DNA of 64,000 nt from Methyloversatilis universalis (GTDB taxonomy: Bacteria; Pseudomonadota; Gammaproteobacteria; Methylococcales; Methylococcaceae): the NCBI GenBank assembly GCA_020723665.1, contig DYIL01000017.1:1-64000 (forward strand), given 5' to 3'. How positions within the stretch are numbered: the first letter of the stretch is position 1; every line of letters begins with the position of its first letter. The translations under genes were made by a program, and so were the position numbers. Below are positions 943-27,117 of this stretch, piece after piece. The notes under the pieces are model-generated. The model saw only the letters and a program-made list of their open reading frames with translations. It searched no databases and was not told where the DNA came from.

Positions 943-2763
943 TCAGGCTCCTGCCGCACGGGTGGCTCTCTTGCGCTCGTGCTCCGAGAGCAGCTTTTTT
1001 CTGAGGCGGATGGATTTCGGCGTCACTTCCACCAGTTCGTCGTCGTCGATGAACTCCAGAGCCTGTTCCAGGCTCAGCTTGATGGGCGGAGTCAAAATGA
1101 TGTTCTCGTCGCTGCCCGCGGCCCGGATGTTGGTCAGCTGCTTGGCTTTGGTGGGGTTCACCACCAGATCGTTGTCGCGGGAATGTATGCCGATGATCAT
1201 GCCCTCGTAGACTTCCGTGCCATGTTCGATGAACAGCCGTCCGCGCTCCTGCAGGTTGAACAGCGCATAGCCCAGCGCCTTGCCCGCCACCATGGAGATC
1301 ATCACGCCGTTGATACGCTGGCCGATTTCGCCCTTCTTGACCGGGCCGTAATGGTCGAAGACGTGGTATAGAAGACCGGTGCCCGAGGTGGCGGTCATGA
1401 ACTCTGTCTGGAAACCGATCAGGCCGCGGGACGGAATCATGTATTCCAGCCGTACCCTGCCCTGCCCATCCGGCATCATGTTCAGAAGATCGCCCTTGCG
1501 CTCGCCGAGTTTCTCCATCACGGCGCCCTGGTTCGCTTCCTCCACCTCGATGGTGACGAATTCATAAGGCTCGCAGAGTTCGCCGTCGATTTCCTTGATG
1601 ATGACTTCGGGACGCGATACCCCGAGTTCGTAGCCCTCACGCCGCATGTTTTCGATCAGAATGGAGAGATGCAGCTCGCCGCGTCCCGAGACTTTGAATT
1701 TGTCCGGGTCCGATGTATCTTCCACGCGCAGGGCGACGTTGTGCAGCAGTTCGCGCTGCAACCGTTCACGAATTTGGCGCGACGTGACGAACTTGCCCTC
1801 CTTGCCCGCAAAGGGCGAGTTGTTGACCTGAAAGGTCATGCTGACCGTGGGCTCGTCCACGGTCAAGGGCGGAAGCGGCTCGACGCAGTCGACGGCGCAA
1901 ACGGTGTCGGAGATTTCCAGAGCATCGATGCCGGTGAAGGCGATGATGTCGCCGGCATTGGCCTCGGGTACCTCCACCCGCTCCAGCCCCTTGAACCCGA
2001 ATACCTGTAGGATACGTGCGTTGCGCTGCCCGCCGTCGCGGCTGACCACGGTCACCGGGGTATTGGTCCTGATCGTTCCGCGCTGAATGCGGCCGATCCC
2101 GATCACGCCGACATAGGAGTTGTAATCCAACTGACTGATCTGCATCCGGAAGCCACCCTCCGCGTCGACCACGGGCGGATGCACCTTGTCGATGATGGTT
2201 TGGAACAAGGGTTCCATGTTGCCTTCCCGGATATCCGGACTGTGACCCGCGTAGCCGTTCAGCGCCGAGGCGTAAACCACCGGGAAATCCAGCTGCTCCT
2301 CGGTCGCGCCGAGTCGGTCGAACAGATCGAAGGTCTGATCCAGTACCCAGTTGGGACGGGCGCCGGGCCGGTCGATCTTGTTGATAACAACGATGGGCTT
2401 CAAACCTAAAGCGAACGCCTTTTGCGTCACGAAACGGGTTTGCGGCATGGGACCGTCCACCGCATCGACCAGCAGCAGCACCGAATCCACCATGGACAAC
2501 ACACGCTCCACTTCGCCACCGAAGTCGGCGTGCCCGGGCGTGTCGACGATATTGATGTGATAGCCATTCCAATCGATGGCGGTATTCTTGGCCAGGATGG
2601 TAATCCCGCGTTCCTTTTCCAGGGCGTTCGAGTCCATCACCCGTTCTTCCACTTTTTCGTGGGCGGCGAACGTGCCGGACTGCTGGAGCAGTTTATCGAC
2701 CAGGGTGGTCTTGCCGTGGTCTACGTGAGCGATGATGGCGATATTGCGTAGTTTTTCGATCAT
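943..2763 (-). CDS. typA: Ribosome-associated translational GTPase BipA/TypA
   Basis: A 606-residue protein, the usual length for BipA. It begins with the G1 motif [10 protein letters not shown] (about residues 12-21), then [12 protein letters not shown] (G3) and NKIDRP (G4), followed by EF-G-like domains and the BipA-specific C-terminal domain. The family binds the 70S ribosome at the EF-G site and assists 50S assembly and stress or cold adaptation. I chose the start at MIEKLRNI (ATG 2763) because the family begins there; the track's extra 13 residues are not typical. Transcribed alone, leftward. Confidence 0.97.
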
Positions 2764-3599
2764 AAATCGGGAAAAGATGGATAAACGCGCGGGAAGAGCC
2801 AAATAAAACCAATTATTCTACCAGATTCGAGACTCCCTCAGTCTCGAGCGGATGCGCGGTTTTGTCCATGCTGGACGTGCGATCAGAGCGTTTTCATCGC
2901 TGATGTACGCTCAAACAGGAAGCTGCCTTCGGCAGCAAATCGGTTTGAAGCGGGTCTCGCCCCGCCGGCGAGTGACTTTTACAAACCACTTGTGGGCTGT
3001 GCCTCCTGCTGCGCCCACAAGTCCTGGGGTTTGCCCTTCGGGCCAGCCTTTGGCTTGTCCAAACTGACAACGTCCTTCCCTGGACGTTGCCCTTCGGGCG
3101 AACGTTGTTCGTCCCATTCCGCTTCCGGCGGAATGGTCGCTCCCGGCGAATTGGTCTTTTGCTTGCCCAAAAGACAAGTTTGTCAGGAACAAACTTGGAC
3201 GCGCGAAGCGCGCCCGAAGGGTTCGCACCAGGGAGGGTGCGAATCAGCGAAACCGAAGAAAAGGGCCCCCGGATGGCGCGCTGATCCTGCGCGGCGCCGG
3301 CTTACGCCGGGGGCGATCCTTCGCGTGCCCCTTGGGGCGATTCCGGCTCCGGCCGGCGATGCTCGGGCGCGCCATACGGGACAATTCAGCAACGCCGTAC
3401 ACCTGATTAGAAAATGCTCTATTAGTAACACCGCCATGTTGCAGAATGGAGAGCGATCCCCGGTTTGGAGGGATTTTCCGCAACCGCGGTCTGCCGGTCG
3501 CATGCACGGCAACGTCCGAGTCAGCGATTCGCCTACCGAATGATGGCTCTCTTTATCTCTGAGGGGCGTATCCTATGGAAAATCTGGCTCCCTGCCCGC
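2764..3599. other. Intergenic region dominated by a hairpin array
   Basis: No gene is supported between bipA and the rhodanese gene. Long ORFs on both strands (for example 2992-3543) are by-products of the palindromic, stop-poor sequence; neither strand resembles a known protein. The hairpin series is listed separately. Confidence 0.7.
2922..3338. repeat. Array of consecutive perfect hairpins
   Basis: More than a dozen short inverted repeats follow each other with little spacing. Examples are GCTGCC-TTC-GGCAGC (2922-2936), ACTTGTGGGC/GCCCACAAGT (2988-3022), GCCC-TTC-GGGC (3033 and again 3089), AACGTCC/GGACGTT (3069-3088), ATTCCGC/GCGGAAT (3116-3134), GTCTTTT/AAAAGAC (3154-3175), CAAGTTTGT/ACAAACTTG (3175-3197), TTCGCACC/GGTGCGAA (3222-3242) and GCCCC-TT-GGGGC (3327-3338). 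The stems differ in sequence, so this is not a simple tandem repeat. CGCTCCCGGCGAA at about 3139 is shared with the hairpin units near 20.46 and 26.57 kb. Confidence 0.85.
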
Positions 3600-3998
3600 T
3601 CAGCTCTGCTCCCAAGGAAGGCCGTGATAACGCCATCCGCCTACGCTGCTGCGGTGCTTGTGCTCGTCCAGAGGACCTTCGAAACCTTGTTCGATATTCG
3701 TCACATCCGAATAGCCCGCCCCCACAAGCGCCTTGGCAGCTTCTAGCGAGCGCTGTCCGCTGCGGCACAGCACGAGCAGCGGCGTATCGGCATTCGGAAC
3801 GGACTGGCGCACGCGCTCGACGAAATCCGGATCGGGTTTCCAGTCGGGAGCTCTTTTCCACGGAATATTGATCGCGCCGCACGGATGCCCCACGTAGGAA
3901 AACTCCAGGGGATCGCGGACATCCAGGAGCACGGCTTCAGTCTTTTTTTGGAGAACATCCCACGCCTCGGACGGCGCGAGACTTTTTACGGACGACAT
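3600..3998 (-). CDS. Single-domain rhodanese-like protein
   Basis: A 132-residue cytoplasmic protein consisting of one rhodanese domain. The catalytic loop LCRSGQRS contains the persulfide-forming cysteine, and the upstream VLLDVRDPLEFSYVGHP is the usual domain entry motif. Rhodaneses carry sulfane sulfur to acceptors such as cyanide, thiols or biosynthetic enzymes. The partner cannot be told from sequence. It lies just downstream of the methyltransferase gene and reads in the same direction, with a gap of about 50 bases, so co-transcription with trkA and the methyltransferase is plausible. There is no signal peptide. Confidence 0.88.
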   Translation of the reverse strand: MSSVKSLAPSEAWDVLQKKTEAVLLDVRDPLEFSYVGHPCGAINIPWKRAPDWKPDPDFVERVRQSVPNADTPLLVLCRSGQRSLEAAKALVGAGYSDVTNIEQGFEGPLDEHKHRSSVGGWRYHGLPWEQS

Positions 3999-20371: not shown

Positions 20372-20638
20372 TTCCAATTCGCAATCAAAGAAACAATATC
20401 GTAGGCCGGGATAAGCCTGTCCTGAGCTTGTCGAAGGGCCGTACTTCGCACGTTAGCGTTCGCTCCCGGCGAACGGGTGCACGCGTAAGCGCCGCTTGCG
20501 GCTCCCAACGGGGAAAGTGCGGCGTGATCGGGTTGGGTAAAGATCTTTTGGATCCAACAGTCGCACTGTTCGCCTTTCCCACTGGAAACTTAATCAGAGT
20601 TTCCTTAAAGATATTTTCCGATTGTTCAATAAACGGAA
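20372..20638. mobile_element. MITE-like hairpin element interrupting another repeat
   Basis: A 267-base insert starting TTCCAATTCGCAATCAAAG and ending ATAAACGGAA, flanked on both sides by TTA. The copy at 54.62 kb reads CCCCTTACGTGG without the insert and acts as a paralogous empty site. It carries no gene. Its interior holds several hairpins (CGTTCGC/GCGAACG, ACAGT-CGC-ACTGT, AGCGCCGC/GCGGCT) and is repeated in inverted orientation at 26.42-26.63 kb. It also contains the common GTCCTGAGCTTGTCGAAGGG motif. Confidence 0.7.
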
Positions 20639-26320: not shown

Positions 26321-27117
26321 GCCGGTAAAAAGCCGTCGAACGACGAGCACCGCGAGCGGGACCTCGGTCACACCGGCTACCGCTTTGGCGATTAAAGAAC
26401 GGTTTTCGACAAATCCCATTAGGGAAGCTCTGATTAAGTTTCCAGTGGGAAAAGCGAACAGTGCGACTGTTGGATCCAAAAGGCCCTCACCCAACCCCAT
26501 CACGCCGCACTTTCCCCGTTGGGAGCCGCAAGCGGCGCTTACCCGTGCACCCGTTCGCCGGGAGCGAACGCTAACGTGCGAAGCACGGCCCTTCGACTTC
26601 GCTCAGGACAGGTTTGTCCCAGCGGGAGATGGCTTATTCAGAACTTTCTTAGCGAGAAACGCCCGCCGCCTCCGACCGAACCCCTGGATGGGGCTCAGGA
26701 CGAGCATCATCGTTCGCGATTTATGTGGGCTTCCCAGTCTCGGTCCTCTAGCGCCCGGCCGCAAGTGGAAAAACGGAAAACCGCACGGAGCCGAGTTCCG
26801 ATTGAACGAGCGGACCTATACGTCGCCGTTTGCCTGAAAAATAATCGAAATACCCTAGTTGACAGGACTTGAAAGGCAAGCCTAAAGTATTGACTCGATA
26901 CCAAAAGCCGTGGTTAGGGGCTTCCGATTGACCCAGCCGCGTGCCGAGAAGTATCGATACGGTTCCCGGCTTTCGGGTTCCAAGCTGGGCTTCTTCGTAT
27001 TCGAAACGCAGAATCCGCAATGACCTTTATACCCATTATTGGCATACGCGGCAACTCTGCTCCTTACAATCCCTGGCCATTGAAGGCCAGCTTTATGACC
27101 GGAATAGGGTGAACAAT
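26321..27117. other. Intergenic region with hairpin repeat
   Basis: About 0.8 kb. The first third is the inverted copy of the 20.4-kb hairpin unit. The rest has no convincing gene. TTGACA (26859) and TAAAGT (26883) with an 18-base spacer make a possible promoter for the small gene at 27118, with a leader of more than 200 bases. Confidence 0.6.
26421..26650. repeat. Hairpin-rich repeat unit, inverted copy
   Basis: Opens GGGAAGCTCTGATTAAG and closes CTTATTCAGAACTTTCTT, imperfect inverted ends. The interior matches the reverse complement of about 20400-20605 almost throughout, including TTCCAGTGGGAAA, ACAGTGCGACTGTTGGATCC, CACGCCGCACTTTCCCCGTTGGGAGCCGCAAGCGGCGCTTAC and GTTCGCCGGGAGCGAACGC. It is non-coding despite an open frame on the plus strand. 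Confidence 0.85.

Follow-up and report, generated by a model that had tools for sequence, protein, structure and literature searches.

IS630/Tc1-mariner-type MITEs, of which RUP of pneumococcus and the Correia elements are examples, are short elements that have no transposase gene, share their terminal inverted repeats (TIRs) with a resident IS630-family insertion sequence (IS), target TA and reach dozens of copies. GTAG REPs, the partners of RAYT enzymes, are short palindromes in inverted pairs that are probably moved as a single strand. Rickettsia palindromic elements (RPEs) are described as palindromes inserted in frame in unrelated genes (PMC10969869, PMC3733652), and CGTC-REPs form dimers and intragenic copies and have no dedicated transposase (Di Nocera 2013, PMC3733652). 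Among RNAs, the CsrB/RsmZ family presents series of hairpins with ANGGAN loops; the high-affinity CsrA/RsmE site is ANGGAX (PMC4005645). Here we analyse a row of hairpins in a 64,000-nt window (the whole stretch of DNA studied) from a gammaproteobacterial methanotroph whose nearest bipA relatives are Methylococcaceae. In our judgement positions 2884–3421 are probably a two-layer composite mobile element, in which an IS630-type MITE carries a facing pair of 73-nt modules.

The first-pass annotation had reported more than a dozen perfect hairpins between 2922 and 3338, occupying nearly every base. Compared with 300 dinucleotide shuffles, this interval holds 14 perfect Watson–Crick hairpins with stems of at least 5 bp and loops of 3–16 nt (shuffle mean 5.1, maximum 10), 8 with stems of at least 6 (mean 1.8, maximum 6) and 6 with stems of at least 8 (mean 0.2, maximum 2), so that the count stands at the shortest stem length but only about half of the hairpins reach 8 bp. 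The bases used by hairpins exceeded those in all 300 shuffles, both strands folded better than every shuffle (z of −5.6 on the plus and −5.7 on the minus strand), and the stems do differ from one another while still pairing. The interval itself contains the hairpins but was drawn too narrowly, because the repeated unit runs from 2884 to 3421 (Table 1). A unique RNA locus at 2922–3338 is ruled out: the region is one copy of a dispersed element, with many palindromes nested inside it. Among the options first offered, a composite of palindromic mobile units gained the support, in the form of an IS630-type MITE with empty sites that carries palindromic insertion units; the hairpin row may also be read as a protein-binding array.

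Table 1. Features of the element, its neighbours and related copies in the window (R1, covariance model of the module; its E-values are rough; strand left empty where none is assigned).
Feature	Position	Strand	Details and basis
Whole element (MITE copy), left terminal repeat to right TA	2884–3421	+	Borders from alignment of >20 copies in G000–G003; the leading T of the usual TA is C in this copy (left end, CA)
Left TIR AGAGCGTTTTCATCGCTGATGTACG	2885–2909	+	Common to ends of IS630-family IS in G002
End hairpin GCTGCC-ttc-GGCAGC	2922–2936		Kept in nearly all copies; some changed on both arms
Partial second left module	2982–3055	−	C-type hairpin enclosing another one (2988–3022), CCCGAAGGG hairpin 3034–3044, B hairpin 3045–3055, A hairpin missing; copy alignment and comparison with complete modules
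Left module (A-B-D-C)	3064–3136	−	A 3114–3136, B 3099–3111, D 3090–3098, C 3068–3089; R1 match 84.9 bits
Central hairpin GTCTTTTG-cttgcc-CAAAAGAC	3154–3175		Copies L176, L179 versus L031, L050
Right module (A-B-D-C)	3175–3247	+	A 3175–3197 (loop CAGGA), B 3201–3213, D 3212–3220, C 3222–3243 (loop AGGGAG); R1 match 92.8 bits, E 2.6e-19
Right-end domain, built on the long stem CCCGGATGGCGCGC / GCGCGCCATACGGG and enclosing hairpins	3268–3380		Inverted repeat I5, 93%; conserved in most copies
Right TIR, TAGAGCATTTTCTAATCAGGTGTACG when read on −, ending in target TA	3396–3421	−	
bipA (typA) coding sequence, start codon inferred	943–2763	−	ORF and relatives; element upstream
Rhodanese-like gene, far side of element	3600–3998	−	ORF
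Distant module relative in inverted repeat pair	20406–20477	−	R1 27.5 bits, E 9e-5
Distant module relative, other arm of pair	26550–26622	+	R1 24.3 bits, E 5e-4

The element lies between the co-directional bipA and rhodanese-like genes. In two congeners this gap holds a glycosyltransferase-like gene, and in a third a remnant of one (names assigned by eye); the element is absent from the bipA locus in all three. In the host's own genome the glycosyltransferase-like gene has been lost exactly at the element's place (2763–3600), and since the copy occupies the place of the lost gene, a neighbouring stretch was deleted either when the element inserted or later.

The outer layer is a non-autonomous IS630-type MITE. 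The element has 61 blast matches in its own genome, is also present in many copies in three congeners and leaves small matches elsewhere in the order. Copies that we read were approximately 196–672 bp long and common in their ends, which are imperfect TIRs starting TAGAGCRTTTTC that are also found on a complete IS630-family (DDE_3) insertion sequence; the 12-mer TAGAGCGTTTTC occurs at both ends of 1,032-bp DDE_3 transposase elements in congener G002 and at one end in G000. For ten copies, the two flanks were joined and sought in the congeners; the sites of L011, L012 and L044 are empty in G002, where flank meets flank at precisely one TA. Shared TIRs, the TA target and multiple copies without a transposase gene thus all match the known IS630-type MITEs, from which the element differs in its range of lengths (0.2–0.67 kb), because its load of hairpin modules, which are mobile in their own right, varies from copy to copy. 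In G003 and G000, other MITE subfamilies (L174, L175 and L177) share these IS630-type ends but have a different cargo, made up of tandem units around CCGGGAGCGCCGG and CGTTTGCGATTGGAAGG hairpins. A module-bearing MITE at L171 (G003:C1:5431000-5434200) adjoins a region with an IS630-type transposase and ends marked by TIRs, the two possibly forming a composite unit.

As its cargo the MITE carries two copies, head to head, of a separate 73-nt module. Each module has four hairpins: A (9-bp stem, loop CNGGA) is followed by the linker GAC, and then come B, the CCCGAAGGG hairpin and C (loop ANGGAN). Module-free MITE copies (L176 and L179) read GGCGAGTTACTTTTCTTTGCGTGCCCAAAGAAAAGTAACCAAAAGAAAGGGCACCCGG at their core, and in L031 and L050 this core is interrupted twice, each time directly after GA when read in the direction of the module. 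By the same comparison, the central hairpin of the window copy is the rest of the MITE core hairpin GTTACTTTTCTTTG..CAAAGAAAAGTAAC of module-free copies. In other genera the two bases 5′ of the module are likewise G (28/36) and A (32/36), and the module enters between 5′-GA and A, leaving no clear duplication of the target. That MITE copies exist with and without modules shows that the module inserts, and to judge from these sequences moves, independently of the MITE. Neighbouring module matches at 73–75-nt spacing reveal tandem units as well. The link that the first-pass annotation drew to repeats near 20.46 and 26.57 kb is real but weak, R1 recognizing a distant relative at each place (Table 1). 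These relatives lie in a 213-bp inverted repeat pair, 91% identical, at 20405–20616 and 26411–26623 of the window. Shorter related palindrome pieces, of the GTAGGCCGGGATAA type, are scattered near 20.4, 22.5, 31.0, 36.0 and 52.0 kb.

Across module copies the loops CNGGA, GAA and ANGGAN are conserved, while the stems change freely and yet remain paired. In an alignment of 43 instances, 93% of cells are paired, compared with at most 45% when partners are slid, and 243 cells are changed on both sides, compared with 80 in shuffles. Changes on both sides affect 17 of the 24 stem pairs. Because the A hairpins of this alignment (A1) were picked for pairing, their share of the covariation figures is inflated and the independent evidence comes from helices 2 to 4; helix 4 (hairpin C) reaches 94.5% pairing, and 7/8 of its pairs are changed on both sides. 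The earlier suggestion that pairing itself is what is kept is therefore well borne out (covariation score 0.583, versus 0.182 shuffled).

The module is older than the MITE and is spread across a bacterial phylum. Searches with R1 gave 93 matches in the host's own genome and located the module in 29/41 genomes of the order sample, in 109/274 Gammaproteobacteria of the class sample and in 43/200 genomes of the phylum sample (E≤1e-6), some of them outside Gammaproteobacteria; the copy number ranges from 0 to >90 among related genomes. Among the 28 best loci outside the order, ten have the module behind a tRNA gene, within ~140 nt (in L269, at 82–150 of the locus), and in most tRNA cases the stretch from the T-loop to the 3′ end of the tRNA recurs unchanged past the module, which is preceded by the T-arm in inverted copy. 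In relatives, as opposed to the window copy, modules also lie in frame in eight genes, encoding RlmL, a ketoacyl synthase, YqeY, HsdR, a NarG-type oxidoreductase, a P-type ATPase, MetG and HsdM, in both orientations; Pfam domains flank the module on either side or span it. Both the tRNA and the in-frame cases were drawn from top-scoring loci and do not give a share of all copies.

Two observations from these loci stand apart. In L228 (G008:C1 ~1328619), a methionyl-tRNA synthetase-like ORF appears to contain a DUF559 domain adjoining an in-frame module, the two lying between the anticodon-binding and tRNA-binding domains. L243 and L256 contain tandem repeats of the tRNA-Ser 3′ end, a terminator and a module, a layout that we take to resemble the rtT repeats of the E. 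coli tyrT operon.

Judged by these analogies, the closest known kinds appear to be RPEs, which the module resembles in behaviour, and CGTC-REPs. Like RPEs, the module is palindromic, enters unrelated conserved genes in frame, occurs between genes as well and has no known transposase; unlike them, it has a four-hairpin architecture, GGA loops, tandem and head-to-head arrays, a strong tie to tRNA 3′ ends and a distribution throughout Gammaproteobacteria and in other classes. With CGTC-REPs (PMC3733652) it shares dimers, intragenic copies, the lack of a dedicated transposase, a stem and loop of the right size (9 bp and 5 nt in hairpin A, for 8–9 bp and 4–5 nt in that family) and an adjacent CGTC/TGTC on the other strand, hairpin A being followed by GAC in most of the 43 rows, with G (30) or A (10) as the next base. 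It departs from them in that the first stem pair is C-G in 42/43 rows where CGTC-REPs have A-T at the first and second positions, in that there is no CCA tail, the flank of hairpin A being GA, which is target sequence, and in that hairpin A is the first part of a 73-nt unit that B, D and C complete. Like GTAG REPs, the modules are short palindromes in inverted pairs that probably move as a single strand, but their consensus has no GTAG tag. We found no enzyme for the module; the one RAYT-like gene near a module in the host's own genome (L202) was rejected as the cognate enzyme, being a chance neighbour flanked by GTAG-type REPs rather than by the module. The module is absent from Rfam and, in the open-access literature on hairpins or MITEs in methanotrophs, tRNA-gene palindromes and rtT RNA, undescribed. 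We tentatively propose, at just short of an even chance, that the 73-nt A-B-D-C module represents a family of palindromic mobile units, hitherto undescribed and spread across the phylum, that has the precise ends 5′-GA/C...CA/A (borders at the slashes), is moved by some enzyme as a folded single strand, prefers the tRNA T-loop, is tolerated in frame within core genes and rides on other transposons, the present IS630-type MITE among them.

Conserved pairing can also point to an RNA, and two RNA-level readings were weighed against the composite element. Were the fold maintained as RNA, its stems should accept GU pairs and reject AC mismatches. In stems not chosen for pairing, GT and AC mismatches numbered 14:10 in hairpin C and 16:15 in hairpin A (30 versus 25), a small count that includes related sequences, compared with 6:0 in the tRNA stems of the same loci (p=0.07 for the difference from module stems). 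An early ratio of 23:5 for helix C in A1 was discarded as inflated by shared ancestry once sampling was wider and unselected. Since both mismatches are about equally frequent, pairing looks kept at the DNA level, which this evidence favours without deciding. We accordingly regard as very unlikely the reading of the element as a structured cis- or trans-acting RNA (a terminator, mRNA stabilizer or small RNA) that is kept for its fold, with mobility secondary. Its strong fold and covariation, the co-directional genes on either side and five terminator-like sites in the region, where 1.1 are expected, would suit such an RNA, but both strands fold equally well, modules stand in genes and behind tRNAs in both orientations, and related genomes differ so widely in copy number; the RNA option of the first-pass annotation thus found no support. 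The alternative that CsrA is sequestered, in the manner of CsrB/RsmZ, by RNA copied from the element or from module-bearing 3′ ends of genes, with the mobile element spreading CsrA-binding arrays, we hold to be decidedly unlikely. It reasons that ANGGAN or CNGGA in each loop would let transcripts bind CsrA, and the stem-borne C loop indeed reads A-N-GGA-X, where N and X vary, which is the very site that CsrA/RsmE bind with high affinity (PMC4005645). GGA occurs in 71/108 long hairpins of element loci versus 14/153 in control loci, the host's own genome has one csrA, and RsmY gave weak sub-threshold matches. Yet modules are as frequent in genomes lacking csrA (13/39) as in those bearing it (96/235; a hand count in which several csrA-less genomes are incomplete), including G163 and its congener G277, which have modules and no csrA. 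A single element also carries GGA on the plus strand in some hairpins and on the minus strand in others, GT is not in excess over AC, and coding-region insertions take both orientations. Rfam yielded nothing convincing at the locus at gathering or permissive scores, and no promoter for the element was found. With the loops suggestive but the csrA-less genomes and symmetric mismatches weakening it, the idea of a CsrA sponge was set aside: binding of CsrA by transcribed copies may, on the loop sequences, be real, but it does not explain the module family.

The DNA-level view meets an objection of its own, in that the conservation of loops on one strand (ANGGAN being the CsrA consensus) is unexplained by a purely DNA-level account. 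It also admits a reading, which we find unlikely, that pairing is kept purely by a mutation mechanism and not by selection: template switching would correct imperfect palindromes, and the modules would be dead repeats copied by IS630 and recombination. The symmetric mismatches, mostly Watson–Crick stems and many nested palindromes are as such a process predicts. Against it stand the precise insertion borders. So does the strong conservation, across the phylum, of the loops, the GAC linker and the order of the hairpins, since correction alone would not preserve them.

Under the preferred reading of a two-layer composite, a trans-acting enzyme would move, or would once have moved, the module in the form of a folded single strand, in the way proposed for REP-type repeats, and would recognize it by its hairpins. 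The arms of the module would stay complementary at the DNA level through selection for a mobilizable hairpin or through hairpin-templated correction from arm to arm. In Methylocaldum-like bacteria, an IS630-type MITE may then have acquired modules and multiplied them. If the element is such a composite, the hairpin row would be a palimpsest of selfish DNA, and whatever it did to bipA or the rhodanese gene would be incidental.

For palindromic repeats of the RPE and CGTC types no transposase is known, and their mode of movement is an open question (PMC3733652). Hundreds of copies, empty and occupied pairs within the MITE, the GA/A border, the tRNA T-loop target and in-frame copies in housekeeping genes make the question of movement testable for the module. 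The locus cautions that large covariation need not mean an RNA gene, and it presents a case in which one mobile element amplifies another.
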